The notes under the pieces were generated by a model that was not told the origin of the DNA, did no database searches, and saw only the letters and a list, made by a program, of their open reading frames with translations. A program made the translations under genes and the position numbers. Of a DNA stretch of 20,482 nucleotides, positions 4,270 through 19,716 are shown in pieces. This stretch comes from a virus. Where the stretch lies: IMG/VR virus record IMGVR_UViG_3300010388_000397, positions 1 through 20,482 of that record; one strand, given 5' to 3'. Within the stretch, counting starts at the first letter, position 1; each line of letters begins with the position of its first letter.

Positions 4270-4572
4270 TTATTGAACAAAAAACCCTGAGGCGCGTTGC
4301 ACGATCCAGGACATAGGGGCCGTCGGATTGGGCGGTTCTAGGCTGGGCTCGGTACATAGGCATTGTCGGTATACGGTGGCGTCTGGTTCTGCGTAGGGTT
4401 GGCGACAGAAGCACGCTTGTTGCCACTCTTTGCCCTTCGGCGCTGGATCGAGGCTGCGGATGAAGCCTTCACTGTCGATGGTGTACCAGGTCAGCTGATT
4501 ACCGTTCGGTGGCAGGGCGGACGCGCTGTGCGGCAGCGCCAGGGCCAGCATGATTAGGGTGGTGATTCGCAT
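4270..4572 (-). CDS. Small secreted Cys-containing protein with signal peptide, unknown function
   Basis: 100 residues. The N-terminus MRITTLIMLALALPHSASA is a convincing Sec signal peptide with an Ala-x-Ala cleavage site near residue 19. No lipobox cysteine follows, so it is not an evident lipoprotein. The mature part has CFC at about residues 54-56 and CLC at about 70-72, giving four Cys that could form two disulphides in the periplasm. AGGAG about 9 nt upstream supports the ATG at 4572. The start lies inside the 3' end of the preceding gene (19-nt overlap). Export from a phage appendage region is unusual. It could be a periplasmic moron or superinfection-exclusion factor, which is speculation. 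I do not recognise a family. Confidence 0.65.
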   Translation of the reverse strand: MRITTLIMLALALPHSASALPPNGNQLTWYTIDSEGFIRSLDPAPKGKEWQQACFCRQPYAEPDATVYRQCLCTEPSLEPPNPTAPMSWIVQRASGFFVQ

Positions 4573-5111: not shown

Positions 5112-5114
5112 CGG

Positions 5115-6206: not shown

Positions 6207-6400
6207 TGCAATAACACCCATTTTCCATTGACGACTTGCAACATGGTGCCGTTGCTCAGGTTCTCTGGGTCGGGCAGTATTCGCTTGTCGTCAATCAATG
6301 ACTCTAACAAGTCGTGCAATTCCTTATGATCGTTGCTCAGCGCCTTGATATCGGCACCAATGGCCGTGGCCAGATCAGCTATGCGGCCTTCCAGGCTCAT
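6203..6400 (-). CDS. Short paralogue of the adjacent tail-fibre gene's N-terminus
   Basis: 65 residues. The opening MSLEGRIADLATAIGADIKAL matches MASLETRIADLAQAIGTDVKSL of the next gene upstream (6404-6934), so one derives from the other or both share a docking helix. The rest is a short helical linker (HKELHDLLESLIDD) ending in NGTMLQVVNGKWVLLQ, a strand pair typical of the tips of phage structural proteins. It overlaps the following gene by ATGA. It may be an accessory attachment subunit using the same N-terminal coiled coil, or a truncated fibre copy. Confidence 0.72.
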   Translation of the reverse strand: MSLEGRIADLATAIGADIKALSNDHKELHDLLESLIDDKRILPDPENLSNGTMLQVVNGKWVLLQ

Positions 6401-6403
6401 GGC

Positions 6404-6934
6404 TTAAGCCTTCGCGGTAGCGTAGTCGGTGGCGAACACGCGGTCGGTGTTGCCGATGGCGGTGACTAGATTGGATAAATCCAGCGCGGCGGCGGCGGCG
6501 ATATTGCTGCGGCCCTGCGTTTGCTGCGGCGCGGTGAAGGACTGGGCCGCGTCCACGCGAACGCGGAGCCCTAGTTGTTCGACGATGCCGCCCGCGATGC
6601 CGCTGCCGGCCAGGTAATCGGCCAGTTCCTTGATGGTGTCCAGCGTCGATGCCGGTATGCCGCCCATGATGTCGGAGCGTAGCGCTTCGACGACCGCCAG
6701 AATCTTGCTCACGCTGTAAGTCGTGGTGGTGCTGGTCGATAGGGCGCTGTCGTTGATTAGGTCCGTCAGGTCAACCGCGTTCACGGCGGCGAGCACTTCA
6801 TTCAGCGCTCCGACGAGGTTGGTTTTCTCCGTGGTCGTCAGGTTGGCCAGGGTGCCCAGGCGCGTGTTGAGGGATTTGACATCCGTGCCGATGGCTTGGG
6901 CGAGGTCGGCGATGCGGGTTTCCAGTGAGGCCAT
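6404..6934 (-). CDS. Tail-fibre-like protein
   Basis: 176 residues. The N-terminal amphipathic helix (SLETRIADLAQAIGTDVKSLNTRLGTL) looks like a coiled coil. A TTEKTNLVGALNEVLAAVNA segment typical of phage fibre shafts follows, then DTIKELADYLAG. The C-terminal segment LRVRVDAAQSFTAPQQTQGRSNIAAA strongly resembles a motif widespread in tail-fibre proteins, including after host-contact domains. Length is short for a full fibre, so it may be a fibre segment or one subunit of a multi-protein fibre together with the neighbouring genes. Start at ATG 6934. No membrane or signal sequence. Confidence 0.8.
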   Translation of the reverse strand: MASLETRIADLAQAIGTDVKSLNTRLGTLANLTTTEKTNLVGALNEVLAAVNAVDLTDLINDSALSTSTTTTYSVSKILAVVEALRSDIMGGIPASTLDTIKELADYLAGSGIAGGIVEQLGLRVRVDAAQSFTAPQQTQGRSNIAAAAALDLSNLVTAIGNTDRVFATDYATAKA

Positions 6935-6948
6935 GGGGTGTGCTCCGG

Positions 6949-7179
6949 TCAGGTGGACAGTTGGTACAGGGTGACAAAATCGGTCGTGATCTCTTCAGTC
7001 AGGCCGCTCGGCCCGGTCGGGCCCGGTGGACCTTCCGGGCCTTGGGGTCCGGTCGGGCCGGTGAGCCCGCGTAGCAGGTTGGTACGGATCCCGCGCAAGC
7101 CTTCGGCGACCTCGATGATGGCCAGTTCGGTACCGTCCAGCGCGGCGGTGTGTTCCTTGTGGTCTGAGATCAAGCTCAT
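6949..7179 (-). CDS. Small protein with a short collagen-like segment
   Basis: The ATG at 7179 follows the upstream stop by 2 nt and gives 76 residues. An upstream in-frame extension would overlap gene E and is rejected. It has a helical N-terminus (MSLISDHKEHTAALDGTELA) and an AEGLRGIRTNLLRG linker. About seven collagen-type triplets (GLTGPTGPQGPEGPPGPTG, about residues 46-64) precede a short C-terminus (EEITTDFVTLYQL). It resembles a miniature of the collagen-like protein at 2265, including an 'E(V/I)A' segment before the repeats. Probably an appendage component; seven triplets are few for a stable rod, so it may work as a linker. Confidence 0.75.
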   Translation of the reverse strand: MSLISDHKEHTAALDGTELAIIEVAEGLRGIRTNLLRGLTGPTGPQGPEGPPGPTGPSGLTEEITTDFVTLYQLST

Positions 7180-7181
7180 GG

Positions 7182-7595
7182 TTAAAGTATCTCTAGCAGA
7201 CGAAGTCCGATGATGTTGTATACGCTGCGCAATTCCAACCGTTCTGGTGTCGGTGTAGTGCTGTACTCGCGCATCCACAGGTTATACCCGGTGAGCGGCA
7301 GGCTCGCGGCCCGCTCCCGGTAGGCGTCCTTCTCGGATTCGGTGAGCGCCTGCCATGCCGCATTCGCGGCGGTGAAGCGTGCCCGGTGCGGGGCGTTCTT
7401 GCTCGTGGTCCGGTCGTGCCGGATGCCTTTGCGGCGGAGCTGCAATTCCGGCCCATGCTCGCGGTGGATGTTGCCCTTGCCCCGGGCGCGGCGCTGGTAA
7501 ACCCAATCCTCTGGCGCTGGGCTGGCGGGGTCGTAATCGGCGCGAATGGCCCCGGTCGGGACGATGCAGATGTCATGCAGGCGAGGCGTGGCCAT
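7182..7595 (-). CDS. Small paralogue E, W.AL..E+..Y...NLW.REY type
   Basis: 137 residues from the ATG at 7595, 2 nt after the stop of F. A longer frame upstream lies inside F and is rejected. The N-terminal half is specific to this member (MATPRLHDICIVPTGAIRADYD; WVYQRRARGKGNIHREHGPE). The C-terminal half carries the family signature FTAANAAWQALTESEKDAY, then LPLTGYNLWMREY, nearly superimposable on C and D. A tail with RLELRSVYNIIGLRLLEIL follows. The contrast of a unique head and a conserved end supports modular exchange within the family. Function unknown. Confidence 0.78.
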   Translation of the reverse strand: MATPRLHDICIVPTGAIRADYDPASPAPEDWVYQRRARGKGNIHREHGPELQLRRKGIRHDRTTSKNAPHRARFTAANAAWQALTESEKDAYRERAASLPLTGYNLWMREYSTTPTPERLELRSVYNIIGLRLLEIL

Positions 7596-7597
7596 GG

Positions 7598-7885
7598 TTA
7601 CAGCGGGTGCTCGATGATCCATGCGGCCCAGAAGTCGGCCCATGCTGGAATTCGGTGGTAGCGGATTTCTTCTCCCTCCATGTAGTCGGTCACTGGGATG
7701 GCGCTATGCGCGGCCTTGGCCGCCGCGAAGCGGGCTCTCAGTTGGAGTTGGCGCGGGGTCTGGCGATCGGTTGGCTGGCCCTGGGCGATGAATTCCGGCC
7801 CGTGCCGCCCGCGCCGGAAACTGCCGATATTCCCAATCTGGCCATAGGCCGAATCTGAAAACAGCGGGCGGACTACCTTAACCAT
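7598..7885 (-). CDS. Small paralogue F of the 'M.KV..PL.S' family
   Basis: 95 residues from the ATG at 7885, which overlaps the end of the preceding gene by 8 nt and has AAAGG a short distance upstream. The N-terminus MVKVVRPLFSDSAYGQIGN then GSFRRGRHGPEFIA matches the family pattern best seen in H (MVKVIGPLFSVAASGVF). The middle (TPRQLQLRARFAAAKAAH) aligns with the F.AA...W block of the others, but the C-terminal LSGYNLFVREY motif is replaced by a Trp-rich end (WADFWAAWIIEHPL). It is a divergent member; function unknown. Confidence 0.75.
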   Translation of the reverse strand: MVKVVRPLFSDSAYGQIGNIGSFRRGRHGPEFIAQGQPTDRQTPRQLQLRARFAAAKAAHSAIPVTDYMEGEEIRYHRIPAWADFWAAWIIEHPL

Positions 7886-8867
7886 TCCAGCCTTTCCCCT
7901 GGTAAATCTTGACCGTCTCGGTGTGCGACACGCGCACATTGTCGTTGCGTTCGAAGTATACCCCTCGGCTCGGCGGTGTCGTAATGCGCAGCATCAGCCG
8001 GTTGGCGTTCACCCTCGGGCCAAAGCTGGCCTTACCGTTCAGCGTGCGCAGGGCCGACACGTCAAGCGTGTATTGCCAGTCGCTGACCACGGCGGGCGGT
8101 ACGATCATGCGGGGCTCGTAATCCTTGACCCACTTCGTAATCAGGTAATCCGGCTCTGCGGGTGGCGAGTTGGTGGCGTGGTACAGGTAGGGCCATGAGC
8201 ACAGCGAAAACCAGGGTGCATAGCCGCGAAAGTTGGCCTGGGCGCTCACTTGGCCGGTGATGACCGCGAATAGCGGGCGCTCGTAGTTGTACAGCCCGGG
8301 CCGGTAGGCGAGTTGTGGCAGCGTGTAGGTCAGGCGGCGTTGGGCAAACCATAAGTCCCGCCACACGCCGTTGCTTACGGTGCCCTGCCAGCCGGGGCGC
8401 GGCTGTTGTGTCGTGCCGGGTCCGGTGGGTGTGGGATAGGTCGATGACGCCCGGGCAAAGCGGCAGATCGAGGGGTGCCGCGTTTCATCGAACCACGCCT
8501 TATTCAAATCGCCCGCGTAAATGCTGATTTCTGGCGTCCCGTAATCGGTCAGGTCTTCGGTGGCCGTCAGCTCATACCAGAACCGGGGATCGAAGAACCC
8601 GGCGCGCAGTTCTTCTAGCCGGTTGGTTTTGAAATCGCCGCTCTCGGCTGGTCGCTGACTCCTTGGCCAGTTACTGCGCAGCCACCTCCCGGCGCTGATG
8701 ATGGCGGTCAGTAGGGCATTCGGTATCGGTTCGGGTTGCGCCTGGCGGGCAGACCGTGACAGGCCCACGGTTTTCCCCTCGCCCCCGGTGTATCCGGGCA
8801 GGCTCAGGATGCGGGCGTATTGATCGCGGATGCTGGGTGGGATGGACTGATTTTTGACCTTGGCCAT
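7878..8867 (-). CDS. Hypothetical phage structural-region protein with a MAKVKN start
   Basis: 329 residues. The first six residues (MAKVKN) match paralogue B, but what follows (QSIPPSIRDQYARILSLPGYTGGEGKTVG) has no further family likeness, so this may be a distant or fused relative. The body is rich in Trp, Tyr and Arg (AFFDPRFWYELTATEDL-like, then WRDLWFAQRRLTYTLPQLAY, WFSLCSWPYLYHATN) and probably beta-rich. The C-terminus has repeated strands (MLRITTPPSRGVYFERNDNVRVSHTE type). GAGGG lies about 11 nt before the ATG at 8867. Size and place between the lysis genes and the fibres suggest a baseplate or appendage protein. I do not recognise a family. Confidence 0.75.
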   Translation of the reverse strand: MAKVKNQSIPPSIRDQYARILSLPGYTGGEGKTVGLSRSARQAQPEPIPNALLTAIISAGRWLRSNWPRSQRPAESGDFKTNRLEELRAGFFDPRFWYELTATEDLTDYGTPEISIYAGDLNKAWFDETRHPSICRFARASSTYPTPTGPGTTQQPRPGWQGTVSNGVWRDLWFAQRRLTYTLPQLAYRPGLYNYERPLFAVITGQVSAQANFRGYAPWFSLCSWPYLYHATNSPPAEPDYLITKWVKDYEPRMIVPPAVVSDWQYTLDVSALRTLNGKASFGPRVNANRLMLRITTPPSRGVYFERNDNVRVSHTETVKIYQGKGWNG

Positions 8868-8898
8868 GGCTGCGATTCCCTCGGGTGAGGGCTACAGC

Positions 8899-9438
8899 TT
8901 AAACCTTGGCGTCGAGCGGGAAAGCGATTCGCCACCTGGCCCAAAAATGCCGCTCCATGGCGGCGGCGAGTTCCGGCGATTCGATGACGAGCCCGGTGTC
9001 GTAGTTGCTCACCGCCGAGGCCTTGGAGATATTGTGCGAGCCCACGTAGACGATCCGCTTGTCGATGATTAGCAGTTTCTCATGCAGGGTGCGTCGGTCC
9101 GGCACCTTTCGCATGCCCCAGCCAGCAGCCTTGAGCTGGCGGGCCGCGCCGATGTTGTAGGGCTCCTTGCGGCCTGCCACGTTGGGTTGATCGACGATCC
9201 CCCGGCAGCACAGACCCCGCGCGGCGGCGTTGGCGAGGGTCTGCGTCAGGTTCAGTTTCCCGGTTGCGGGGTCGCGCCAATGGTGCGAGATCATGTAGAC
9301 CGACAGGAGGATTTGTGTCTCCGCGCTGTTGATCGCCCATTCAAACCAGGGCGCCCAGTCGTCGCCGGTCAGGATCGCGCAGGGGGCATCCGTGATCTTG
9401 ATGGCTGGCGGAGAAACGGGGCAGCTCAGCCAGTCCAT
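8899..9438 (-). CDS. Phospholipase D-like (HKD) nuclease-type protein
   Basis: The ATG at 9438 gives 179 residues; longer frames upstream run through the endolysin gene. It has one HKD motif, H119-x-K121-x4-D126 (TLHEKLLIIDKRIVYVGSHNIS), with the following GSHN segment typical of the PLD superfamily. An upstream ILLSVYMIS strand (about 43-51) corresponds to the first strand of the fold. A single HKD motif in about 180 residues is the size of the Nuc/EndA-type bacterial nucleases, which dimerise to make one active site. No signal peptide is evident from this start. It overlaps the endolysin gene by 13 nt, so both are co-translated in the lysis region. A role in DNA degradation, or in phospholipid cleavage at lysis, is possible. 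The superfamily is firm; the substrate is open. Confidence 0.88.
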   Translation of the reverse strand: MDWLSCPVSPPAIKITDAPCAILTGDDWAPWFEWAINSAETQILLSVYMISHHWRDPATGKLNLTQTLANAAARGLCCRGIVDQPNVAGRKEPYNIGAARQLKAAGWGMRKVPDRRTLHEKLLIIDKRIVYVGSHNISKASAVSNYDTGLVIESPELAAAMERHFWARWRIAFPLDAKV

Positions 9439-9920
9439 CGCGCCGGCCCACCTGGACGCACATCGACATGCGTGAACGATTGGTAACGCCCCACTCCGCC
9501 AGCCGCGCCAAGGATCCGTTCCGCCATGGCCGCGATTTCGGCTGGCGTGTGCGTGGCGCTGCGGATATCGGCGGCGTTGCCCAGGCAATGCTGGCTCGCG
9601 CGAGCGCCCCCCACGGCCCGATTGTGCGCGGTGCAGCGGTAGCCGCTCACAATGACCAAAGGCCCGCCTGAAGCGGCTCTCAGCGTTTCCAGCACGTCGA
9701 GTAACTTGATATTCACTTTAGCCCCGCCACAGCCGCAATGGCAGGCGAATTCCTGGCGGCGGAAGTGCGCTGACACCTGGTCGCCTTTGTTTGCCGGTGC
9801 CGCTGATGATTTTTTCTCCCCTTCTTTTTTCAGCCGTGACAGTAGGCCGGTCAGGGCGGGTTGATGCTCCAGGAGGGGCAGCAGGGCGGTCAGCTCATCG
9901 TGGGTGATGACGAAGGGCAT
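9426..9920 (-). CDS. Endolysin, peptidase M15 (D-Ala-D-Ala carboxypeptidase-like)
   Basis: 164 residues. The C-terminal domain (about residues 47-158) is peptidase M15A-like. The HFRRQEFACHCGCG segment opens the domain, SGYRC (92-96) and HNRAVGG (99-105) follow, and the zinc ligands are H111 and D118 in SQHCLGNAADI and H151 in HVDVR. Such enzymes cleave peptide bonds in peptidoglycan stems or cross-links. The N-terminal 46 residues form a helical Leu-rich segment with a Lys-rich linker, perhaps a wall-binding or regulatory extension. There is no signal peptide, so release would depend on the holin at 10255. GGAG lies upstream of the ATG at 9920. All catalytic residues are present, so it should be active. 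Confidence 0.93.
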   Translation of the reverse strand: MPFVITHDELTALLPLLEHQPALTGLLSRLKKEGEKKSSAAPANKGDQVSAHFRRQEFACHCGCGGAKVNIKLLDVLETLRAASGGPLVIVSGYRCTAHNRAVGGARASQHCLGNAADIRSATHTPAEIAAMAERILGAAGGVGRYQSFTHVDVRPGGPARWTG

Positions 9921-9940
9921 GTTGGCGTTCTCCGTATTGG

Positions 9941-10255
9941 TCAGGGTGGGACCGGCTGGGCCGGGGCTTGAATCAACTGGGTCTGATACTCGGACAGGTA
10001 GAGCTGATACCCGGACAGGCCGGTATTCACGGCGGCGGCTTTCCAGGCGGTTTTCTGCTCGGCGGTGGCGGCATGCCAGCCCGCCACGGCGGCGGCGAAC
10101 TTGGCGGACTGGGCCTGTTGTGCCGCCGTGCGTGGCTTTTCGACCTTCCGCCGCTCGCTCACGGTCGTCTGGCCGTTCCCGGTGCGGAATTCAAGCATGT
10201 CCTTGAACACGCCGGAGGCGGCCACGCTGAACAGCGGGCCGATAACCTTGACCAT
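9941..10255 (-). CDS. Small paralogue H of the 'M.KV.GPL.S' family, inside the lysis cassette
   Basis: 104 residues from the ATG at 10255, which overlaps the holin stop (TAATG). A much longer open frame reaching 10876 runs across the holin gene and is rejected. It has both family halves: MVKVIGPLFSVAASGVFKD with LEFRTGNGQTTVSE at the front, and FAAAVAGWHAATAEQKTAW with TGLSGYQLYLSEYQT at the back. Lying between holin and endolysin, about 1.1 kb from the nearest other member, it shows that the family is scattered as well as tandem. The tight coupling to the holin gene is notable, but no lysis function can be read from the sequence. Confidence 0.85.
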   Translation of the reverse strand: MVKVIGPLFSVAASGVFKDMLEFRTGNGQTTVSERRKVEKPRTAAQQAQSAKFAAAVAGWHAATAEQKTAWKAAAVNTGLSGYQLYLSEYQTQLIQAPAQPVPP

Positions 10256-10587
10256 TAAACCCCCCCTTCCTCTTCGGTGTTCAGCTTCATCTGCCGGGTA
10301 ATCACGTTCTGCATGCTGAACAGCAACCGGGCGCCCATGTGGGAACCCACACAGACCATGACAATCGCGGTCATTTCGTCCAGCTTCGCCGATTGGGCGA
10401 AAAAGTAGGTCGTCAGCCCGGCCAGCAAGCTGTAGCTCACATCCATGATGAAATTCAACAGGGGATTTCGCGGTGGCCGCTTGCCGAGGTAGCGCGAGAG
10501 GTTCCCGGCAATCGCGCTCAGCAGCGACAGGCCGGTGACCCACAGATACGAGATCATGGGCACAGTCGAGGGGTCGTTGTGGCTCAT
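10255..10587 (-). CDS. Phage holin (three transmembrane segments)
   Basis: 110 residues from the ATG at 10587 (MSHNDPSTVPMISYLWVTG), with GGGAG about 10 nt upstream. Three hydrophobic segments are visible, at about residues 12-30, 44-64 and 72-89, with a basic loop (RYLGKRPPRN) between the first two and a charged C-terminus (QMKLNTEEEGGV). This is the layout of class I-type holins, and the sequence resembles LydA-like phage holins, a family call made from memory. It would permeabilise the inner membrane to release the M15 endolysin encoded just downstream. The stop overlaps the next start. Confidence 0.82.
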   Translation of the reverse strand: MSHNDPSTVPMISYLWVTGLSLLSAIAGNLSRYLGKRPPRNPLLNFIMDVSYSLLAGLTTYFFAQSAKLDEMTAIVMVCVGSHMGARLLFSMQNVITRQMKLNTEEEGGV

Positions 10588-10638
10588 GGCGACGGTCTCC
10601 CGGAGTGGCGCAAGTGGTTGAAATAGAGGCATCACGGG

Positions 10639-10974
10639 TCATTCTATCGCGTCTGACTGCCGGGCTAGTGCTGACTCCAGGTACAGGATGCCCGTCCCGT
10701 CTTTGACCATCTCGCCGGTCATCCGGATCACGGTCCAATCCAGGAGGGCCGCGCAGTTGAATTTGTGGCAATCGCTCGTGAAGCCAGCGGCGCGCACATG
10801 CCGGCCCTTGGTGTGGATCCCGCCATCGATCTCCACGGCGACACGGGCCGCTGGCCACGCAAAATCGAATCGCCATTTGCGGGTTGGATGGAAGCAGTAT
10901 TCGCGTTCCGGTGTGGCGAGTTTCAGCGCTCGGACTTGCAGGGCAAATCGCGCCTCAAGCTTGGATTCACTCAT
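10639..10974 (-). CDS. Vsr/DUF559-like PD-(D/E)xK-type nuclease
   Basis: 111 residues from the ATG at 10974, which overlaps the end of the 31-residue membrane peptide gene. The core REYCFHPTRKWRFDFAWP then VAVEIDGGIH holds D37 and E48, the usual acidic residues of this restriction-endonuclease-like fold. H54 and H59 follow in a GGIHTKGRH segment, and VRAAGFTSDCHKFN leads to WTVIRMTGEMV. Small proteins of this type are frequent in proteobacterial phages beside lysis genes. They are related to the Vsr very-short-patch-repair and DUF559 nucleases. The substrate in phages is not established; branch or mismatch cutting of phage DNA, or host DNA degradation, are possibilities. Key residues look intact. 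Confidence 0.85.
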   Translation of the reverse strand: MSESKLEARFALQVRALKLATPEREYCFHPTRKWRFDFAWPAARVAVEIDGGIHTKGRHVRAAGFTSDCHKFNCAALLDWTVIRMTGEMVKDGTGILYLESALARQSDAIE

Positions 10975-11062
10975 CGTCAAGGCCGCCCCAGGCGGCGATT
11001 AACAGTAGGATTATCAGGATCGCGTTTTCCAGTTCGTGCAGGGATAGATGGATTTCAGTCAT
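10967..11062 (-). CDS. 31-residue single-span membrane peptide
   Basis: The ATG at 11062 lies inside the end of the preceding gene (ATGACTGA, 8-nt overlap), and the TGA overlaps the ATG of the nuclease gene. The peptide has an amphipathic N-terminus (MTEIHLSLHELEN), one hydrophobic span (AILIILLLIAAW, residues 14-25) and an acidic end (GGLDDE). It is far below the usual cutoff, but coupling on both sides argues that it is real. Its position ahead of the holin and endolysin genes makes an antiholin or lysis-timing role conceivable. I do not recognise a family. Confidence 0.6.
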   Translation of the reverse strand: MTEIHLSLHELENAILIILLLIAAWGGLDDE

Positions 11063-11267
11063 GGTGGAATACCTCGCCGGTGAGTGGGTCGATGTTGCGC
11101 ATGGATAGGGGCGGCGGGTGCGTGCCGTCCGGCAGGTCCAGTACGCGCCGCCAGGCCCGGTTGAACTTTCTCGGGTCGGCATTGACGCGCTGCCATTGCT
11201 CCGCCGATCCGCCACGCTTGAGGAAAGCGCGGTGGATGGCGTCATGGGTTTTCTCGTATCGGGTCAT
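11055..11267 (-). CDS. Small basic hypothetical protein at the start of the late operon
   Basis: 70 residues (MTRYEKTHDAIHRAFLKRGGSAEQWQRVN...), rich in Arg, Lys, His and Trp, with no Cys and no membrane segment. DPRKFNRAWRRVLDLPDG resembles a short helical nucleic-acid-binding or adaptor segment, but no known motif is certain. It is the first clear gene after the 22-bp repeat array at 11281-11346. Its stop overlaps the start of the 31-residue membrane peptide. Function unknown. Confidence 0.65.
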   Translation of the reverse strand: MTRYEKTHDAIHRAFLKRGGSAEQWQRVNADPRKFNRAWRRVLDLPDGTHPPPLSMRNIDPLTGEVFHHD

Positions 11268-11353
11268 GCTGCTCGGTTATGGGGTAAGCTCGGCAATCCA
11301 ACGGGGTAAGCTCGTTGAGCTAACGGGGCAAGCTCGACGAGCCAATGGGCCAT
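11264..11353 (-). CDS. Possible 29-residue ORF spanning the 22-bp repeats
   Basis: An ATG at 11353 opens a 29-codon frame whose TGA overlaps the ATG of the next gene (ATGA), as with many genuine neighbours here. It starts MAHWLVELAPLAQRAYP. It reads straight through three 22-bp DNA repeats. Because 22 is not a multiple of 3, the repeats do not give a repeated peptide, so selection seems to act on DNA rather than protein. No good ribosome binding site precedes it. Possibly a leader peptide; more likely fortuitous. Confidence 0.2.
   Translation of the reverse strand: MAHWLVELAPLAQRAYPVGLPSLPHNRAA
11281..11346 (-). repeat. Three tandem 22-bp repeats at the early/late boundary
   Basis: Three head-to-tail units occupy 11281-11302, 11303-11324 and 11325-11346. 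On the plus strand each begins GGGG(T/C)AAGCTCG. The middle copy contains a perfect 5-bp inverted repeat, AGCTC-GTT-GAGCT on the plus strand, and the third a near-perfect one. Two helical turns per unit put each copy on the same DNA face, as expected for cooperative protein binding. They fill the 104-nt gap between the last early gene and the first late gene. Likely an operator or control region; an iteron-like replication role is an alternative. Confidence 0.7.
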
Positions 11354-11371
11354 GGGCTGCGCTTCGGCGGT

Positions 11372-11725
11372 TCATGTCCTGTTAATTCGGGGTCTGGTGT
11401 CCTGGGTCACGTATTGGCAAAAACTGTCGCACTGGTGCCCGGTGGTGGCGCAAAGCGCCCGCTGTGCGCAGTCATCGCAAGGAAAGGCGACGGACAGACC
11501 TGATGGCTTTCGTTGGCGCGTCGCTGCCTTTACGCAATCCTTGCATTGGCTCGTTCTGTGTTGGTGATTCCAGGCGGTGGCGCGCTTCAGGTAAAAATCA
11601 TCCAGTGGCTTTATGTGGCCGCAGCGTGTGCATGTCTTCGTGCCAGCGATGGGGTCAGCGGGTGCTGCTGCCTGACTCCGGGACAGCTTGGTTTGGTCTT
11701 GTATTTGGCGGGCGGTGGCGCTCAT
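11372..11725 (-). CDS. Probable zinc-binding phage protein with two Cys clusters
   Basis: The ATG at 11725 overlaps the upstream stop (ATGA) and gives 117 residues. The first cluster reads CTRCGHIKPLDDFY, then CKDC about 20 residues later, a CxxC...CxxC pattern common in small phage proteins and in the N-terminus of some HNH-type proteins. The second cluster is FPCDDCAQRALC, then C..FC. No HNH catalytic motif is visible. The N-terminus is Gln/Ala-rich and basic, ahead of the fingers. Binding of zinc and nucleic acid is likely, function unknown. It is the last gene of the early block. Confidence 0.75.
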   Translation of the reverse strand: MSATARQIQDQTKLSRSQAAAPADPIAGTKTCTRCGHIKPLDDFYLKRATAWNHQHRTSQCKDCVKAATRQRKPSGLSVAFPCDDCAQRALCATTGHQCDSFCQYVTQDTRPRINRT

Positions 11726-11967
11726 GCGTCGTCCTCTTCTGGATTCTCGGGCTCGATCTCGACGAGGGGCCGACCACAAGCGGGGCAATAGACCATGTTG
11801 TTGTCCCAGGGTCCGCCCTCGACGAGCGACCAGGTCAGCCCGCATTCTGCTAGCCAGTTGTCCTCGTAGTCGTTGGCTTCATGGAGCCATTCGCAATGCG
11901 GGCCATCTTCCGGGTCTACCGCGTGGGGGTTCGTGGTCAGCCGGTGTTCCATTTGCTCGGGGCTCAT
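11722..11967 (-). CDS. Small acidic zinc-ribbon-like protein
   Basis: 81 residues from ATG 11967 in an ATGA overlap with the preceding stop. It is strongly acidic, ending PENPEEDDA. A late CPACGRPL knuckle, together with AECGLTW and HCEW upstream, supplies four Cys for a treble-clef or ribbon-type zinc site. Longer frames through the neighbouring gene are rejected because the coupled ATG is present. Proteins like this appear often in phage early operons without a known role. It also ends in ATGA overlap with the next gene. Confidence 0.7.
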   Translation of the reverse strand: MSPEQMEHRLTTNPHAVDPEDGPHCEWLHEANDYEDNWLAECGLTWSLVEGGPWDNNMVYCPACGRPLVEIEPENPEEDDA

Positions 11968-12293
11968 GCGGCTTGCTCCGTCGACAGTTGCGCTCTGAGC
12001 TCGGACAGGATGCTTTCGGCGCGTTTTTGATTCAGTTTTGGTCTGGGCAGGGCGATATAGCGGACGTGGGCCGGTTCTGGCGCTGGAGGACGGCAGAGTT
12101 GCCGGAACTCGGGCAAGGACGGCGGCCAGGGGTCCGCGCGGCTCAGGAGGGCTCTCAGGCCCGTTCCCAGCTCGTCCCTGGTCAGGTCCTTCAAGCCTCT
12201 TTGCCATGTGTCCATCGCGGACCGTGACTGCCCGTACTGGCTCGACCATTTGTGGCCGTAGATTTCGCCCATGCGTACCCAGAGCCTGGCCAT
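11964..12293 (-). CDS. Replication-partner protein (lambda P / helicase-loader-like, position-based)
   Basis: 109 residues from ATG 12293, 7 nt after the stop of the O-like gene. The start MARLWVRMGEIYGHKWSSQYG, then WQRGLKDLTRDELGTGLRALL and WPPSLPEFRQLC, is a pattern I associate with phage proteins annotated as replication protein P or helicase-loader accessory factors. It has no ATPase motif. Place directly after an O-like initiator carrying iterons fits a factor that recruits the host helicase. It is short compared with lambda P (about 230 residues), so it may be only the interaction domain. Family call moderate; role inferred from context. Confidence 0.65.
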   Translation of the reverse strand: MARLWVRMGEIYGHKWSSQYGQSRSAMDTWQRGLKDLTRDELGTGLRALLSRADPWPPSLPEFRQLCRPPAPEPAHVRYIALPRPKLNQKRAESILSELRAQLSTEQAA

Positions 12294-12300
12294 CGCGGTG

Positions 12301-13119
12301 TCATGCAGCCCGGTAGGCGTCGAGCTCGATGATGTTCCGTTCCTGCTTGTCTCTAAGCCAGTCGCTGGCTGTTTGGCTGACTCGTTCACAGGCGGACAGA
12401 GGCGGCTGATAGGCTCCATGGGGTTTGTCTCCTCGGGGATTGCGATACGGTTTCGGGTGGCGTAGGCCGGCCCAGTCTTCGCGAATGGCGGTCTTCAGGG
12501 CGGCGTTCCAATCGACGTATTGGTAGCCCTTGGCTTGGGCTTTCTCGGTGAAGGCTTCCAGGTGCTCGGGTAGCCGGTCGTAACTCTTGCGGCTTGCCCA
12601 TTCAGCCACGGCGGGAGAAATGCCGAAGTCGGGCGGCAGGGTGCGTTTCCGGGGTTTCGCGCTGGATGGTGGCGGGCTGGAATTTGGCGGATCGATGGCT
12701 TGTTGCGCGCCTATTCCCTCTTTTGGGAGGTTATTGGGAGATTCATGGGAGATTAGGGTACGGTTTTTCGTACTGCCGGTGGTACGCTTTTCCGTACTGG
12801 GTAGTACGCTTTTCCGTACTGGTACGGTTTCTCGTACTGGTACGGTTTCTCGTACTGGTTGCGCATAACCCTCGACGTTCAATCGATAGTAGGAACGGTG
12901 TCCTCTTGTGCGGTTAACCGTGATGATGCCGTCCCTCTCCAGTTCCTTTATTGCCTCCATAACGGTCTGTCGGTGACAGCCTGTTTCATCGCACAAGAGG
13001 TCAATGCCTGGGTAGCAGTTGTTCTCGTTGTCCGCATGGTTTGAGAGCGCCAGAAGGACGATTTTCCTCGTGGTGGGCAGGCTGATCGACCATGCCCAGT
13101 TGTGGGTTTCCAGGCTCAT
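12301..13119 (-). CDS. Phage replication initiator, lambda O-like, with HTH domain
   Basis: 272 residues. The N-terminal winged-helix-type domain (about residues 13-75) includes RKIVLLALSNHADNENNCYP, then LCDETGCHRQTVMEAIKELERDG, a pattern of phage replication and MarR-like HTH proteins. A repetitive linker (about residues 89-121; PVRETVPVRETVPVRKS...) is encoded by five palindromic DNA repeats. A Pro/Ser-rich stretch follows. The C-terminal domain (AVAEWASRKSYDRLPEHLEAF; YQYVDWNAALKTAIREDWA) is typical of O-like and DnaD/DnaT-type proteins that contact the helicase machinery. The start overlaps the XRE gene stop (ATGA). Initiator function is strongly suggested by the iterons lying inside the gene, as at the lambda origin. 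Confidence 0.85.
   Translation of the reverse strand: MSLETHNWAWSISLPTTRKIVLLALSNHADNENNCYPGIDLLCDETGCHRQTVMEAIKELERDGIITVNRTRGHRSYYRLNVEGYAQPVRETVPVRETVPVRKSVLPSTEKRTTGSTKNRTLISHESPNNLPKEGIGAQQAIDPPNSSPPPSSAKPRKRTLPPDFGISPAVAEWASRKSYDRLPEHLEAFTEKAQAKGYQYVDWNAALKTAIREDWAGLRHPKPYRNPRGDKPHGAYQPPLSACERVSQTASDWLRDKQERNIIELDAYRAA
12758..12855. repeat. Five palindromic iterons, candidate replication origin
   Basis: Five 16-bp copies of GTACG(G/C)TTT(T/C)(T/C)CGTAC occur at 12758-12773, 12782-12797, 12804-12819, 12822-12837 and 12840-12855. Each has perfect 5-bp inverted arms, GTACG and CGTAC. Start-to-start spacing is 24, 22, 18 and 18 bp. They sit inside the O-like gene. Next to them at 12725-12757 are three TTGGGAG/ATGGGAG-type repeats in a locally AT-richer stretch that could unwind. 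This matches the architecture of the lambda origin, so binding by the O-like protein is likely. Confidence 0.8.
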
Positions 13120-13373
13120 GACGCCGCCCCCTCGTGCTCGGTGGCTGGCGTCTGGTGATACTCGCCCATGATGTCTTCAACAGCGACTCCCAGCGTGCGT
13201 GTAATCCTCAATGCCTGGCTGAGCTTGATATCCGTTTTCCCCTGCAGCCAGCGGGAAATATGGGACTGGTCGATGCCGGCCATTTCCCCAATGTGTCGTT
13301 GGGCATAGCGTTGGCTTTTGGCGATGGTCATCAGGTTATGCGGGATCAGGATGCCTTTCTGGTTGTTAGCCAT
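13116..13373 (-). CDS. XRE/Cro-type HTH transcriptional regulator
   Basis: 85 residues from ATG 13373, with GGAG about 11 nt upstream; a longer frame upstream runs inside the preceding gene and is rejected. An XRE-type helix-turn-helix spans about residues 24-65: AQRHIGEMAGIDQSHISRWLQGKTDIKLSQALRIT, ending with the common LGVAVEDIM segment. The C-terminus is short and acidic. Its place between recombination and replication genes suits a Cro- or CII-like regulator. No CI-like repressor with a protease domain is in the window. Its first 28 nt overlap the end of the excisionase-like gene. Confidence 0.85.
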   Translation of the reverse strand: MANNQKGILIPHNLMTIAKSQRYAQRHIGEMAGIDQSHISRWLQGKTDIKLSQALRITRTLGVAVEDIMGEYHQTPATEHEGAAS

Positions 13374-13666
13374 GGTTGGACTTCTCCGTTGTGTAATGCG
13401 CAAGCGGATAATACCCTCTTCGCGTTTGTAGGGCATGTCGTTGTCTCCTGTGGTCGATGCCCCGCGCGCCTAGCATTATGCGTCGCGCTCATGGCGTTTG
13501 TCACCCACTCGGTCAGGGCGGCGGCGGGTATCAGCACCCGCCCCCGCACTTTCACGCTGGGCAGTTCGCCGGTCTCGATCAGCCGTCTGACGGTGCGGGC
13601 CGACACGCACCCTAGCTGGGTGGCGGCGGCATCGATGGAGTAGAGCAGTGGTTGATCGTCTCTCAT
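13346..13666 (-). CDS. Excisionase-family HTH DNA-binding protein
   Basis: 106 residues from ATG 13666; AGAGAGG lies 4 nt upstream, and a GTG one codon earlier is possible. A MerR/excisionase-type HTH is visible at about residues 8-58: YSIDAAATQLGCVSARTVRRLIETGELPSVKVRGRVLIPAAALTEWV, with the turn, recognition helix and wing strand in the expected order. The C-terminal part (THNARRAGHRPQETT...) is basic and low-complexity. Such domains serve as excisionases, small regulators or plasmid-type accessory factors. No integrase gene is in the window, so an excisionase role cannot be supported beyond the fold. It starts 15 nt after the exonuclease stop. Confidence 0.8.
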   Translation of the reverse strand: MRDDQPLLYSIDAAATQLGCVSARTVRRLIETGELPSVKVRGRVLIPAAALTEWVTNAMSATHNARRAGHRPQETTTCPTNAKRVLSACALHNGEVQPWLTTRKAS

Positions 13667-13681
13667 CACGCCTCTCTTTGG

Positions 13682-15388
13682 TTAGGTTTTGAAGCCCATC
13701 GCGAAGACCGCGAAGTCTTTCAAGATTGCGCGCACCAATGCCTCGTCTTCGCCAAAGTCTCGAGACTTAATGAATGCTTCGATGGTGGGATGCCACTCGA
13801 GATGCTCGAAGGCTGATGGCATTGCGGGCGGCTGCTCGTCCTCGATTGCGGCGGCTATTGGCGACAGCGTGCCGGTGGGCTCTTCTCTGGTGAAGAGTTC
13901 CGGCTCGTCTTGTGCCTGGGGCGAAGCCTCGATGGCGCCAATCTCCGCGCAGGGGGCGCGGTTCCGTGCTTCAACTTCGGCGGCGCGTGCTGCTTCCTCG
14001 GCGGCGCGTATTGCCGCCTGGGCTTCGGCGCGGGCTTTGGCTTCCGCCTCGGCGATGGCCTTGGCTTCGGCCTTGAGCCGTGCGGCTTCGGCTTCGGCTT
14101 CCAGGTGTCGGCGAATGCGCAGCCCCGCGAGGGCGTCGAATTCCTCGGCGTCACGCAGACCGATAGCCGCGAAGTCGGGGAAGAGGCTGTACCAATCCCT
14201 GCCGTCGATCCGCAGGGCGGCGCGGTTGCGCGTGAGCCGTGCGGCGTTGGCGGACAGTTCGGCGCGCAGCTCGCCGACGCGAACCGCGAGAGCATCCCGG
14301 CATGAACTGACCGACTTGCGGCCCTTTATGGCTTCACCCAGCGTCTGCCGCGCGGGGACACTGAGCCACTTGCCGTCTAGCTTCGATTCCAGTGCCTGGG
14401 TGTGCTGGATGAGGCCTTCCATGGCGCTGGCGATTAACTCGGCGCGTACCTCGTCTTTCCTGACTTTCACGGCCTTTTCCAGCGTCAAGCGCTTGGCGCG
14501 AAGCTCTTCCTTGAGCCCATCCATGACCCGGAAAACCTCGTCGATGCTGGCGGTTTGGGCAAGGGCCTGAGCTTTCACGGTCTCAAGCCGTGATTCCGCA
14601 TCCTTGCAGAATTTCACCGTGTTTTCCGCGTCGGCGAAGTCTTGGTCTGTCGAAAGGTCGGTCTTGATCGCGCCTATCAGCGCCTGGGCCGCAGTCTTGA
14701 ACCGGTCTAGGTTGGTCGATATGACCCGGCCTTCGATTTCGACCAGCAAGGCCGGCAGTGCCTGGATGGGCGTCGCTACCGGCGCGAGTATTGCGCTGAT
14801 GGGCGTGTAGTTGGCCACGTCGCGGGCGAACTGCTGCCAGCCTGCGATGAGCCGCGCGCGCATGGTGGGGTCTGGTTCGTACCAGGCTGCCAAAGGAGGC
14901 TCATTGTTGCCATTGCTGGCCATGAACATGCATTTTGTCGCCCCACTCACCATGAGTTGTTGCTCCATCTGGGCGCGGTGGTACTCGAGCAGTTCACCAT
15001 TGCGGATTGCCTCGGCAATCTCGCGATTGAGTGTCTTGTGCTCCCACGACACGTCACCCGCGAGAGTGAGTCCGTCCATGCTGGCGGACAGCTTGAGCCC
15101 TTCAATCTCTAGGCTCATCGTGACCGGGTAAAGCTCGTCGCCTATGGCGGCTTCCGCCCACGTGCGCGCGGCCGCTTCGTACTCATGCCCACGGTCAAAC
15201 CGGGCCTGGGTGGCGCTGTCGATCTCTTCCGGCAAACCCCGCGCATAGCGGTCGATCAGGGCCGCGCGCGTCACATAGGAACTGAGCCCCAGCATCGCGG
15301 CGGCATCGCTGGCGTTGAAGTGCGCGGCCCGGTGCGCATGCCACTCTGGGGATCCCTGTTGCAGGTTGTGCGTGATGGCGGCGTTCAT
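13682..15388 (-). CDS. YqaJ-type viral recombinase exonuclease with long C-terminal extension
   Basis: 568 residues. The N-terminal YqaJ nuclease domain (about residues 1-200) has GSPEWHAHR (12-20), SDAAAMLG (27-34), G67-H-E-Y-E71, catalytic D105 in SASMDG, E116-x-K118 in SWEHKT and the MEQQLMVSG helix (141-149). It would resect dsDNA ends to leave 3' single strands for RecT. The remaining 370 residues, unusual for the family, are mostly helical. They include an Ala/Glu/Arg-rich coiled coil (about residues 420-480, LEAEAEAARLKAEAKA type) and a C-terminal EAFIKSRDFGEDEALVRAIL segment. The ATG overlaps the RecT stop, giving the expected coupled exonuclease/annealase pair. The 8-bp-scale GC-rich repeats in the coiled coil are coding. 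Confidence 0.92.
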   Translation of the reverse strand: MNAAITHNLQQGSPEWHAHRAAHFNASDAAAMLGLSSYVTRAALIDRYARGLPEEIDSATQARFDRGHEYEAAARTWAEAAIGDELYPVTMSLEIEGLKLSASMDGLTLAGDVSWEHKTLNREIAEAIRNGELLEYHRAQMEQQLMVSGATKCMFMASNGNNEPPLAAWYEPDPTMRARLIAGWQQFARDVANYTPISAILAPVATPIQALPALLVEIEGRVISTNLDRFKTAAQALIGAIKTDLSTDQDFADAENTVKFCKDAESRLETVKAQALAQTASIDEVFRVMDGLKEELRAKRLTLEKAVKVRKDEVRAELIASAMEGLIQHTQALESKLDGKWLSVPARQTLGEAIKGRKSVSSCRDALAVRVGELRAELSANAARLTRNRAALRIDGRDWYSLFPDFAAIGLRDAEEFDALAGLRIRRHLEAEAEAARLKAEAKAIAEAEAKARAEAQAAIRAAEEAARAAEVEARNRAPCAEIGAIEASPQAQDEPELFTREEPTGTLSPIAAAIEDEQPPAMPSAFEHLEWHPTIEAFIKSRDFGEDEALVRAILKDFAVFAMGFKT

Positions 15389-16248
15389 TGGTTCAACTCC
15401 TCTGCTTGTGCGAGATCGTCCAGCCAGGCTTGGTTGGCCGGCTGTTGATCGAGTGCGGCGATGGCTTCGCGCTGCTCCGCGTTCAGGTCATATTTCGATG
15501 AGATCGCGGCGAGGATGTCGCCGGGTGATTTGCGGCCTGCCTCCACCAGGTCGCGCCATTTCGTGAGATTCCCGGCGAAGGCTTCGGGGTTGTAGGTGGG
15601 CAACTGCGTTAGCGCCAGCGCTGGCGGTTGGTCAACCCTCTCCCCTCGCGTTGGGGTTTCATTGATGACAACCTCGTTGAGCTCGTCCGTGTCATAGACG
15701 CCCAGCAGAACATCTGGAGCATGCAGACGCGCCCAGCGCTTGGTTGCCAGGTAGGCCAGTTGCTGTTTTGGATCGGATAACCAGAGCGGGGAATTGCGGA
15801 CGCTGCCGACTTGCGCCATGGATACCCGTAACTGCCGGGGCCGTTCCTCGCCGGCCAGCGTGGCTGTAATGGTGATGCCACGGGCCGCGCTGTTGTCGGT
15901 TTTGCCATCGACCTTTGACCAGTCGCCATCCCAGGCGTAATCAATGCGCGAGCTCAGCAGGCTTGAACTGGAAACCACGGCGTTGACCAGTTGGGCTTCG
16001 TAACCCAGCGCGCCGTTGACGATGTGGGTTTTCTGGGCCACGGCGAAGGGGTTCATGCCCCACTGTGCCGCCTGCATGACGATGGCCAGGCAATCGCCCG
16101 GGCTACCGGCCAAGTGCTTGGGGACCGTGATCTTCGCTGACGCCATGGCTTCCGCCAGCCGCTGCAGGCATTGCATGCCGACGGCATCAAGGGCCATTGT
16201 CATGGCGCCATGCCGCTCCGGTTTTGTGAGTTGTTGGTTTGTGCTCAT
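15385..16248 (-). CDS. recT: RecT single-strand annealing protein
   Basis: 287 residues. It carries the RecT core: LAIVMQAAQWGMNPFAVAQKTHIVNG, then GYEAQLVNAVVSSSSLLSSRIDY (about residues 53-103), followed by SDPKQQLAYLATKRWARLHAPDVLLGVYD (about 155-190). This family anneals complementary single strands during phage recombination and partners with the YqaJ exonuclease encoded next (ATGA overlap). The N-terminus and C-terminus are helical and charged; the C-terminal EAGRKSPGDILAAISSKYDL segment is typical of RecT proteins and may bind SSB. A GAGGAAACGG sequence lies upstream, and the ATG overlaps the previous gene's stop. A full-length, apparently functional copy. Confidence 0.93.
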   Translation of the reverse strand: MSTNQQLTKPERHGAMTMALDAVGMQCLQRLAEAMASAKITVPKHLAGSPGDCLAIVMQAAQWGMNPFAVAQKTHIVNGALGYEAQLVNAVVSSSSLLSSRIDYAWDGDWSKVDGKTDNSAARGITITATLAGEERPRQLRVSMAQVGSVRNSPLWLSDPKQQLAYLATKRWARLHAPDVLLGVYDTDELNEVVINETPTRGERVDQPPALALTQLPTYNPEAFAGNLTKWRDLVEAGRKSPGDILAAISSKYDLNAEQREAIAALDQQPANQAWLDDLAQAEELNQ

Positions 16249-16430
16249 TGTTCCGTTTCCTCTTCTTCACGGATGGATGCTGGTTGATACGTGGCGGGGA
16301 GGCCCATGGCGCGCATGTCGCGCCAGGCGCGGGACAGCCAGCCAGCGGCGGCGGCGAATGCCGCTGCGAGTAGCAGCAGCATCGCCCAACCGGCCAGCAT
16401 GAAAAACACGGACGCTATTTCATGGCGCAC
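16245..16430 (-). CDS. Small single-span membrane protein with GTG start
   Basis: The frame has no ATG with a good ribosome site. A GTG at 16430 is preceded by GGAGGG at a 6-nt spacing, so I choose it. The product has 61 residues beginning (V)RHEIASVFFMLAGWAM. One hydrophobic segment, about residues 8-32 (FFMLAGWAMLLLLAAAFAAAAGW), is followed by a basic then acidic tail (SRAWRDMRA...REEEETEQ). The start lies inside the end of the preceding gene (16-nt overlap), and the stop overlaps RecT (ATGA). A membrane protein in the early operon could alter host membrane or exclusion; no family is recognised. Confidence 0.65.
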   Translation of the reverse strand: MRHEIASVFFMLAGWAMLLLLAAAFAAAAGWLSRAWRDMRAMGLPATYQPASIREEEETEQ

Positions 16431-16765
16431 GTGAAGCCCTCCGCATGGAGCTGGTCTTGCGCCTCGCGGCGCTGCCGCCAGCACTGGAAGGAATGCGCCA
16501 TAAAGGTCCGCATGGTTTCCCGTGCCCGCTCGGGCCGGTTGTTTTCCACGTCCGAGAGGATGTCGTCGATCACATCGGGCGTGAGCGCCTGCGAGTAGGC
16601 AACCTCGCGTTCCCACTCGTCGCGGAGCCGTTCGGTGACAGCCTGGGGATCCTCGCCTTTGCCCTTTGGCGTTGGGATCGGCGGCGTTACTACTTCGCGC
16701 CGGTGCGCGATGGGCGCGGGGCAGTAGCCCCGCAGGAAATCAAAAGCCGGATTGATCGTGTTCAT
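16415..16765 (-). CDS. First gene of the early operon, unknown function
   Basis: 116 residues from ATG 16765, chosen because TTGGAGGAG lies about 6 nt upstream; a longer frame upstream would run through the promoter. The N-terminus MNTINPAFDFLRGYCPAPI is followed by a Pro-rich loop and two charged helices (LRDEWEREVAYSQALTPDVIDDILSD; RARETMRTFMAHSFQCWRQRREAQDQL). It is hydrophilic and probably helical, with no known motif. It is the first gene after the candidate early promoter at 16798-16826, so it should be strongly expressed. Possibly a host-takeover or RecT-associated factor; function unknown. Confidence 0.75.
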   Translation of the reverse strand: MNTINPAFDFLRGYCPAPIAHRREVVTPPIPTPKGKGEDPQAVTERLRDEWEREVAYSQALTPDVIDDILSDVENNRPERARETMRTFMAHSFQCWRQRREAQDQLHAEGFTCAMK

Positions 16766-16797
16766 CTTTGCTCCTCCAATATGTTGACCACACCTAT

Positions 16798-16846
16798 AGT
16801 CTAATGTGTGCCGCGCATAAACGCAAGGCAAATTGTGCGGCACACA
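16798..16846 (-). promoter_or_regulatory. Candidate early promoter with a 10-bp inverted-repeat operator
   Basis: On the minus strand TTGCGT (16826-16821) and TAGACT (16803-16798) are 17 nt apart and form a plausible but weak sigma70 promoter; transcription would begin near 16791, about 25 nt before the first gene. A perfect 10-bp inverted repeat, TGTGTGCCGC (16805-16814) and GCGGCACACA (16837-16846), encloses it. The left half-site lies inside the -35/-10 spacer and the right one just upstream of the -35. Repressor occupancy could block polymerase; the repressor is not identified in the window. Confidence 0.6.
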
Positions 16847-17940: not shown

Positions 17941-18803
17941 AAAACTTGGAACCCTTGCACACCCACCCCCCCCCACCCGCTTGAAAGCGCACGATTTGCA
18001 CCCGGCGAAGCATGCCAAGGGACCGTGGAATAAATGGGGGGGACCCGTTGCCGCCTGACACGCTGGCTATGGGCGATGGACTGCAAGGCGGCAATGGGGG
18101 GGCAACCGTTTATGCCGCGAAAGCCCTTGGCAAGCCCGGCCCAGACCCGCTGGGAAAGACCCGCCTAACCCACGCCCTCGATACGCTGGGAAAGAGCCTG
18201 GTAAACCATGCCGGGCGGTGCTTTGTTGGGTGCAAATACTTGAGCCAAGCGGGGGGGGGAGGGGGGGGTGTGCGCCGACCGATGCGCAGCGAGGGAGGGT
18301 ATGCGAAGCGGCCTTCTTCCTGGCCGCTGAGCGATACCGATATCCGGAACCAGTCGTGGCCTTATGTCTTCAAGCCGGGCATGGATGCTGGGCGTTCTGG
18401 CCATGGATGGCAGGCGGCGGGCGGACCGCGCCGGACCCGGCAAGACGGAAGGGAGTTGAGCGCAGCCGGGGCCGGATGAAGCGGTCGGCCCGCCGCCTCA
18501 TGGCGGGGATGGACCCCGGCCATGCTTCGCCATGGATGGCGCTCCGGCAGGCGTGGCGGCGGCTGAGTGGCAAACCGTAATGGACTAGGTTTGCCGCCAG
18601 CCAGAGCCGCGATTGCCGGACCCAAACAACTGCCGGTACTCCGGCAACAAGACCGCCTGACCCATGGGCAGCGGCCTGCCTGCTGGGCACCGCCCTATCC
18701 AATCCCCAACCCTTGGCCTGCCGGTACTCCGGCAACAAGACCGCCTGACCCATGGGCGACTGATTCCCTTCCGTGCCGCCCTATCGAATCATCTATCTCG
18801 CAC
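17941..18803. other. Gene-poor GC-rich region with homopolymers and short repeats
   Basis: No frame on either strand here has a good start, ribosome site and protein-like composition together. It holds long C and G runs (about 17963-17976 and 18250-18268) and two CGCTGGGAAAGA copies near 18149 and 18185. It also has two CCATGGATGGC copies near 18400 and 18530, and a CCCGCC/GGCGGG hairpin near 18490-18508. Open frames such as 18012-18479 look like translated repeat DNA. Confidence 0.55.
18630..18757 (+). repeat. 40-bp direct repeat, 88-bp period, containing a hairpin
   Basis: Identical 40-bp units occupy 18630-18669 and 18718-18757, and a shared CCGCCCTATC-AATC follows each about 30 bp later, so a unit of about 88 bp is tandemly duplicated. 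Each unit carries TGCCGG-TACT-CCGGCA, a perfect 6-bp stem with a TACT loop. A related hairpin with a CCGGTACTCCGG core and a longer stem recurs at 19083-19101. REP-like or ssDNA-structure elements are possible. Confidence 0.75.
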
Positions 18804-18831
18804 GGTGAACATAGTCCCGATTATGCGAAGG
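18804..18831 (-). other. dif-like Xer recombination site 1 (inverted partner)
   Basis: Read on the minus strand this is an 11-6-11 site: XerC-like arm CCTTCGCATAA (18831-18821), spacer TCGGGA (18820-18815), XerD-like arm CTATGTTCACC (18814-18804). Against the gammaproteobacterial dif consensus as I remember it, the XerC arm agrees at about 10 of 11 positions and the XerD arm at about 7 of 11. The spacing is exactly that of dif. Confidence 0.55.
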
Positions 18832-18859
18832 GGGTCTAAATAATCCCCGGCAAAATCCC

Positions 18860-18889
18860 CTTTCGCATAATCGCGGGATTATGTTTGGC
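18860..18889 (+). other. dif-like Xer recombination site 2
   Basis: On the plus strand an XerC-like arm CTTTCGCATAA (18860-18870) is followed by an 8-bp spacer TCGCGGGA (18871-18878) and an XerD-like arm TTATGTTTGGC (18879-18889). Eight-bp spacers occur in plasmid sites such as cer. It is inverted relative to site 1, 28 bp away; the two would pair in single-stranded DNA with a GC bulge in the spacer. A GGCGGG/CCCGCC hairpin (18887-18905) follows at once. Confidence 0.55.
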
Positions 18890-18974
18890 GGGCGCTCATC
18901 CCGCCTGGGGCATATTCAAAACAGGGATTGCGGCGCAGCCCACACGGAATTGCGTTAGGGATGCGAAGGGGCAG

Positions 18975-19407: not shown

Positions 19408-19716
19408 CGGCAGCAGAAAAGCCGCTAGAGACAGCGCTTAACGAAGAAGAAGGGCGGGGCCGTTGGGTGGGCGGGGGAGGCGGCGGACTCAAACTCACTG
19501 AGAGCGCAGCGAACCACGACTGACCCACACAAGCTTTGCCGAAGGCCGCAAGACCTCCAGGAATAAGGCGACTCCGCAGCCCGAACCACTCACGTAGAAC
19601 GAAGCCCGGTGGCTGGATCGTCAGAGGCGCGGATGGCCCGGGGCGCTCAGGGGTCTCTGGTGGCGCGATAGGGGTGCGCTCTCAGGATGATCCGCCCGCA
19701 GCTCGAGGATGGCGCT
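19408..19716. other. Spacer region without recognisable gene
   Basis: Between the zinc-ribbon candidate and the small plus-strand frame I see no convincing gene, tRNA or terminator. The sequence is purine-rich on the plus strand around 19440-19495 (GGGCGGGGCC, GGGGGAGGCGGCGG), and base composition changes towards G+T after about 19,700. A plus-strand frame opens at 19536 with TTG but has no ribosome site and runs through repeats. Confidence 0.4.

Follow-up and report, generated by a model that had tools for sequence, protein, structure and literature searches.

Tyrosine recombinases are known to act on single strands in integrons and in CTXphi, the latter borrowing XerCD from its host. The CTXphi attP(+) consists of inverted dif-like sites, one with a centre of 5–7 nt and the other with a centre of 12 nt (PMC3089051, PMC4246890). 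Since no integrase is encoded, CTXphi represents an incomplete single-strand recombination system (PMC4792948). The stretch of DNA analysed here (the window, at its full length) is a virus record of 20,482 bases (G000; IMGVR_UViG_3300010388_000397), in which an initial annotation had proposed a folded attP of the CTXphi type. Plasmid Xer sites such as pdif, psi and cer have an 11-6-11 structure with dif-like arms and are located on plasmids near toxin-antitoxin genes. The hairpin layout of the window is already known from CTXphi. The limited open-access literature consulted contained no account of the hairpin carriers described below, of a conserved hairpin family or of its linkage to a dedicated Xer recombinase.

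Results

Two inverted dif-like sites in the window

An inverted dif-like pair was located at positions 18804–18889, with an 11-6-11 site on the minus strand, an 11-8-11 site on the plus strand and the XerC arms facing inward. The features of this region were as follows:

18630–18776, plus strand: two direct repeats of 59 nt each, 88 nt apart, beside the hairpin
18799–18894, plus strand (the better-folding strand): entire hairpin, assigned by models R2 and R1 to the Methylococcales/NF002331 family
18804–18831, minus strand: dif-like site 1 with the short centre, CCTTCGCATAA-TCGGGA-CTATGTTCACC, 11-6-11 (sequence, arm scan)
18804–18814, minus strand: XerD-like arm of site 1, CTATGTTCACC
18815–18820, minus strand: centre of site 1, TCGGGA
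18821–18831, minus strand: XerC-like arm of site 1, CCTTCGCATAA
18832–18859: apical part between the sites, 28 nt, in the place of the family's variable apical stem-loop (fold, family alignments)
18860–18889, plus strand: dif-like site 2 with the long centre, CTTTCGCATAA-TCGCGGGA-TTATGTTTGGC, 11-8-11 (sequence, arm scan)
18860–18870, plus strand: XerC-like arm of site 2, CTTTCGCATAA
18871–18878, plus strand: centre of site 2, TCGCGGGA
18879–18889, plus strand: XerD-like arm of site 2, TTATGTTTGGC
19456–19486, plus strand: GC-rich motif GGGGCCGTTGGGTGGGCGGGGGAGGCGGCGG, 31 bases

The two sites and the 28 nt between them were thus read as the initial annotation had described them. In a scan of the whole window, the two sites had 0 and 1 mismatches to CGCATAA/TTATGTT, and the next best site had 3; the arms matched the dif of Methylococcales. 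Dinucleotide-preserving shuffles (n = 2000) contained a mean of 0.0095 single sites per window with ≤1 mismatch, and none of the 2000 shuffled windows contained an inverted pair with the XerC arms inside. As single-stranded DNA, the plus strand was predicted to fold with −29.4 kcal/mol, compared with −13.7 kcal/mol for shuffles (z = −5.7; none of 200 shuffles equal). This fold had the 2-nt central bulge previously claimed. The minus strand folded more weakly (−22.2 kcal/mol), and most of the family's outer stem was absent from the window hairpin. A conserved protein gene running through the sites had been raised as a possible objection; the tested open reading frames overlapping the two sites had no protein family match.

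The genes of the window were encoded on the minus strand and were of a lambda-like phage type (RecT, YqaJ exonuclease, an O-like replication protein and an M15 peptidase). Methylococcales genomes contained relatives of the gene at 204–752, as did virus contigs L103 and L108; two further genome bins matched it more weakly. Because of the relatives in Methylococcales, a methanotroph is the likely host of the window virus. From approximately 18.1 kb to the window end, no gene could be assigned to a family. No integrase was found in the window, and the NF002331 recombinase (see below) gave no significant tblastn match across its 20.5 kb, the record being a fragment. The GC-rich motif was 87–97% conserved in six Methylococcales genomes; in two genomes, G280 and G145, it lay approximately 0.4–0.5 kb away from the hairpin, and Methylococcales also had it at places lacking the hairpin. 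Noncoding repeats were also present beside several relatives of the window hairpin.

The phage-like gene set of window positions 1–16843 recurred in Methylococcales (G190, G007 and G095) and included repeated 'MAKVKGPLMS' proteins, collagen-like and lectin-like proteins, PLD and M15 peptidase. By eye, no terminase, portal or capsid genes were seen in the listed regions of G190 and G007, and the set is possibly a reduced or satellite-like element.

A conserved hairpin family in Methylococcales

When related contigs were scanned for dif-like arms, inverted pairs were also found in G007 and G095, and sequence and pattern searches yielded eleven loci, the window included. In the window minus-strand direction, the common layout was ACATAA, 8–12 nt, TTATNCG, a loop of 33–35 nt with its own stem, CGNATAA, exactly 6 nt and TTATG, often followed by AAAAT, with outer stems beyond. 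One centre was always 6 nt and the other 8–12 nt. The arms in the family were dif-like, with up to 10 of 11 positions matching in the XerD arm. The copy closest to the window by eye was that of the NF002331 locus in G114 (AACATAGCGCCGATTATGCG versus AACATAGTCCCGATTATGCG).

The hairpin is thus a genuine structure that is conserved and shows covariation. In an RNAalifold analysis of ten copies, 44 pairs were obtained, of which 22 had changes on both sides. Among 16 copies in the window-plus direction, 95.4% of cells were paired, compared with 80.7% in shuffles, and pairing fell to 25–50% when the partners were slid; 87 cells were double-changed, compared with a shuffled mean of 29.3. The window-plus orientation was the better fold in 17 of 18 members with RNA parameters and in 16 of 18 with DNA parameters. 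A covariance model (R2) was constructed only with 16 hairpins from Methylococcales genomes, and the window was left out of both this model and model R1. The window was nevertheless matched by R1 (28.9 bits, E = 8e-4) and R2 (35.0 bits, E = 7.3e-7). R1 matches were obtained in 17 of 301 Methylococcales genomes, with two hairpin places each in G210, G214 and G239 and a single place in every other genome; places are counted since R1 usually reports each hairpin on both strands.

One copy (L240, 5860–5936) had lost its inner part by a deletion bounded by two TTATG repeats, the outcome to be expected of slippage across an extruded hairpin. Noncoding hairpin-rich repeat arrays were located upstream of the hairpin in L138 (2180–3280) and L141 (16110–16660), with a spacing of approximately 220–250 bases in G007.

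Relation to dif and genomic carriers

The dif site was detected in all ten Methylococcales genomes searched, and read TTCG[C/T]ATAATGTATATTATGTTAAAT in eight of them, with small variants in G095 and G273. The initial annotation had suggested looking for the 28–30 bp site at the host dif junction in related genomes; no hairpin copy was seen at or beside dif in the ten genomes compared. In the closed genome G190, dif (3309761) and the hairpin (4508852) were 1.2 Mb apart, and in draft Methylococcales genomes the hairpin and the best dif match were on separate contigs. After the XerC arm on the long side, the window had TC where Methylococcales dif has TG, which may not be the dif of the window host. 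The hairpin arms did not correlate with the dif variant (CGC or CGT) of each host. Dif is unlikely to be the present location of the hairpin.

Two further observations were made in G190. A Zot-type filamentous prophage adjoined dif (L242, around 3309761), with an inverted partial dif-like arm beside dif. At 4601451–4601476 (L241), 93 kb from the hairpin, an inverted repeat enclosed a second site, whose arms were perfect dif arms but whose centre differed (TGGGCG).

Relatives of the hairpin were carried by plasmids and accessory islands. Judged from their translations, the neighbouring genes encoded toxin-antitoxin, Rhs and defence-type proteins, serine resolvases and plasmid functions, among them ParA and KfrA-like proteins. 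A 33-base repeat (rep36) occurred twice, flanking or near the hairpin, in G190, G095, G145 and G273, and once in G065; it was found nowhere else in these five genomes. No recombination product and no pair of empty and occupied sites was found for the hairpin.

A third Xer recombinase beside the hairpin

The hairpin recurred in other Gamma- and Betaproteobacteria, and thus in at least two classes of Proteobacteria, where it was usually located approximately 0.2–1 kb from a dedicated third Xer recombinase (NF002331). This model (NF002331/PRK01287) bears the name 'site-specific tyrosine recombinase XerC', and the annotation goes no further than XerC. No paper on the model name was found in the limited open-access literature.

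An R2 search of 369 genomes of the class, made blind to proteins, matched eight, six of which encoded an NF002331-type gene. The distance to the hairpin was approximately 0.25–0.9 kb in G503, G565, G522, G387 and G453 and approximately 4 kb in G401; in the remaining two (G423 and G511), the only candidates were Xer-type genes of more distant kinship or a different integrase. For the converse test, NF002331 loci were gathered by protein alone and then searched with R2. Matches were obtained in Methylococcales G114 (L285), Caballeronia (L302 and L303, with changed XerC-like arms), Providencia (L299/L306, approximately 3.7 kb from xerC at the opposite end of the element), Shigella (L304, a circular plasmid of 8758 bp, 0.2 kb past xerC) and Lonsdalea (L305, a circular plasmid of 11289 bp), and none in L258, L286, L296, L297, L298 and L301. 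Methylococcales genomes with R1 hairpins had no NF002331 gene above the cut-off of that model.

The gene order of the plasmid elements was an HTH gene, in most a primase-type gene, xerC and then toxin-antitoxin or toxin-immunity genes. HTH-primase-xerC elements with such cargo were seen on the proteobacterial plasmids L296, L298, L301 and L305, and stood in tandem with a spacing of 7685 bases in L301. The NF002331 recombinase matched XerC/XerD models nearly end to end. The integron model was matched in two pieces only, far below its cut-off, and profile positions ~182–238 were skipped; therefore, the integron-type extra segment is probably absent from this recombinase.

Discussion

Alternative explanations

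The anatomy of the hairpin, its conservation, covariation and strand bias, and the physical linkage to a recombinase in relatives were observed. On this basis we favour, with some reserve, the explanation that an integrative element uses the window feature, folded as a single strand, as its Xer attachment site. The strongest competitor, though an unlikely one, is a double-stranded multimer-resolution site of a plasmid or island, at which XerCD would use the 11-6-11 site as in psi or pdif and the hairpin would be incidental. It agrees with the constant presence of one site with a 6-bp centre and a good XerD arm and with the location of several relatives on plasmids near ParA, KfrA-like and resolvase genes, but leaves unexplained both the covariation of the outer, inner and apical stems and the conserved second site with its 8–12 nt centre. 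We rate next, likewise as unlikely, a structured RNA or another ssDNA element (a priming site, single-strand promoter or regulatory RNA) with dif likeness by descent or coincidence. Covariation and strand bias suit RNA as well as ssDNA, and G-U pairs were present in the folded orientation. However, this reading does not account for why the arms resemble dif, why one centre is fixed at 6 nt or why a Xer-family recombinase is linked to the hairpin; no Rfam match was obtained for the window or the relatives' hairpins, no promoter was found and the single terminator-like match was at chance level. That the palindrome itself arose by chance is extremely improbable in view of the shuffled windows and the independent model match, with only the shortness of the arms in its favour.

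The filamentous-phage origin suggested by the initial annotation fared poorly, as the neighbouring genes were lambda-like and the relatives were located on plasmids and islands, none beside dif. We consider it improbable, more so than a resolution site or an RNA, that the neighbouring phage or island captured a CTXphi-like attP remnant. Virus contigs did contain hairpins with this layout, one contig (L012) having filamentous-phage-like genes, and the prophage of G190 lies at dif. Yet these virus-contig hairpins scored 19–21 bits in the family model, compared with 35 for the window, and no filamentous-phage genes were read beside any Methylococcales hairpin. The hairpin may be the attP of the window's own phage: four Methylococcales genomes contained both hairpin and phage gene, on the same contig in three and 9–29 kb apart, but with non-phage genes between them. 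The window copy may belong to the phage or to a neighbouring island. The exact site pattern was absent from the genome contigs searched, and megablast and blastn searches of window or hairpin pieces against phage and plasmid collections gave no match. A looser hairpin pattern was found in one tailed-phage contig among the virus contigs (L244, 1991–2068), an inverted dif-like pair with two 6-nt centres in a region without long open reading frames and a weak R2 score (17.8 bits).

Several other identities were tried and rejected: a terminator or promoter (nothing above chance), a known RNA (Rfam), a dispersed repeat of the MITE/REP type (mostly one hairpin place per genome) and an integron attC array. 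The last was prompted by repeats in G007 and G095, which lacked the attC core; rep36 occurred only beside hairpins in the five genomes searched.

Proposed mechanism

As a folded attachment site, the hairpin probably serves mobile DNA as a landing place and does so in the single-stranded state. For the ssDNA route, recombinase binding, strand exchange and target, we infer the following course. The plus strand would become single-stranded by transfer, replication or extrusion, and the two inverted sites would pair into one imperfect duplex, with the XerC-like arms by the loop, the XerD-like arms outside and an unequal centre (6 versus 8 nt). A pair of Xer-type tyrosine recombinases would bind this duplex. 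As when CTXphi integrates, one recombinase of the pair would carry out the exchange of a single strand with a target that is double-stranded, and the junction would then be resolved by replication. Where the NF002331 recombinase is encoded close to the hairpin, circular plasmids included, it would be the natural actor, and the hairpin is therefore most simply the attP of the element. Since the window copy and the copies of 16 Methylococcales genomes have no nearby NF002331 gene, they would need either host XerCD or a recombinase supplied in trans. Sole reliance on host XerC/XerD, which the initial annotation named as the cutters in CTXphi, does not fit the many proteobacterial hairpins that accompany an encoded NF002331 recombinase.

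A broader possibility, which we put forward tentatively and consider somewhat less likely than not, is a self-contained single-strand Xer system, in which a third Xer-family recombinase acts on folded dif-like hairpins on proteobacterial integrative plasmids and islands, with recombinase-less derivatives such as the window copy. If true, this system would represent an extant intermediate stage linking dif/XerCD, CTXphi and integrons and, unlike CTXphi, would have an integrase of its own. A folded dif-like site with a Xer-type recombinase gene next to it would make the evolutionary step from chromosome resolution to cassette capture testable. It would also name an attachment site for mobile elements with toxin-antitoxin and toxin-immunity genes.

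Comparison with known systems

The CTXphi-like folded attP proposed initially is supported in its mechanism by the layout, conservation and covariation of the hairpin and by relatives on mobile elements, whereas a filamentous-phage origin, a location at dif and a match of the bases beside the XerC arm are not supported. Like CTXphi attP(+), the hairpin arises when an inverted pair of dif-like sites folds on one strand, and the centres of the pair are unequal in length (6 and 8 nt in the window; one of 6 nt and one of 8–12 nt across the family). However, the sites are approximately 90 nt apart in CTXphi and 28 nt in the window. CTXphi is a filamentous phage without an integrase of its own, whereas the window genes are lambda-like and the hairpin relatives are on plasmids and islands, with their own Xer-family recombinase. 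CTXphi integrates at dif with matching bases beside the XerC arm; no hairpin copies were seen near dif.

The family resembles pdif, psi and cer in its 11-6-11 site, in the likeness of the arms to dif and in its occurrence on plasmids in the vicinity of toxin-antitoxin genes, but differs from them in the second inverted site and the covarying hairpin. NF002331-linked integrative elements have the recombinase within a few kb, unlike the window. Integron attC sites (PMC4792948) share with the hairpin a conserved folded imperfect palindrome, an unpaired centre, a variable apical loop and gene neighbourhoods rich in toxin-antitoxin and defence genes. In contrast to the hairpin, with its dif-like arms (by eye) and approximately one copy per genome, attC has a GTTRRRY core and occurs in arrays. 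IntI has an extra helix, whereas the hairpin-linked recombinase fits Xer models better than the integron model.
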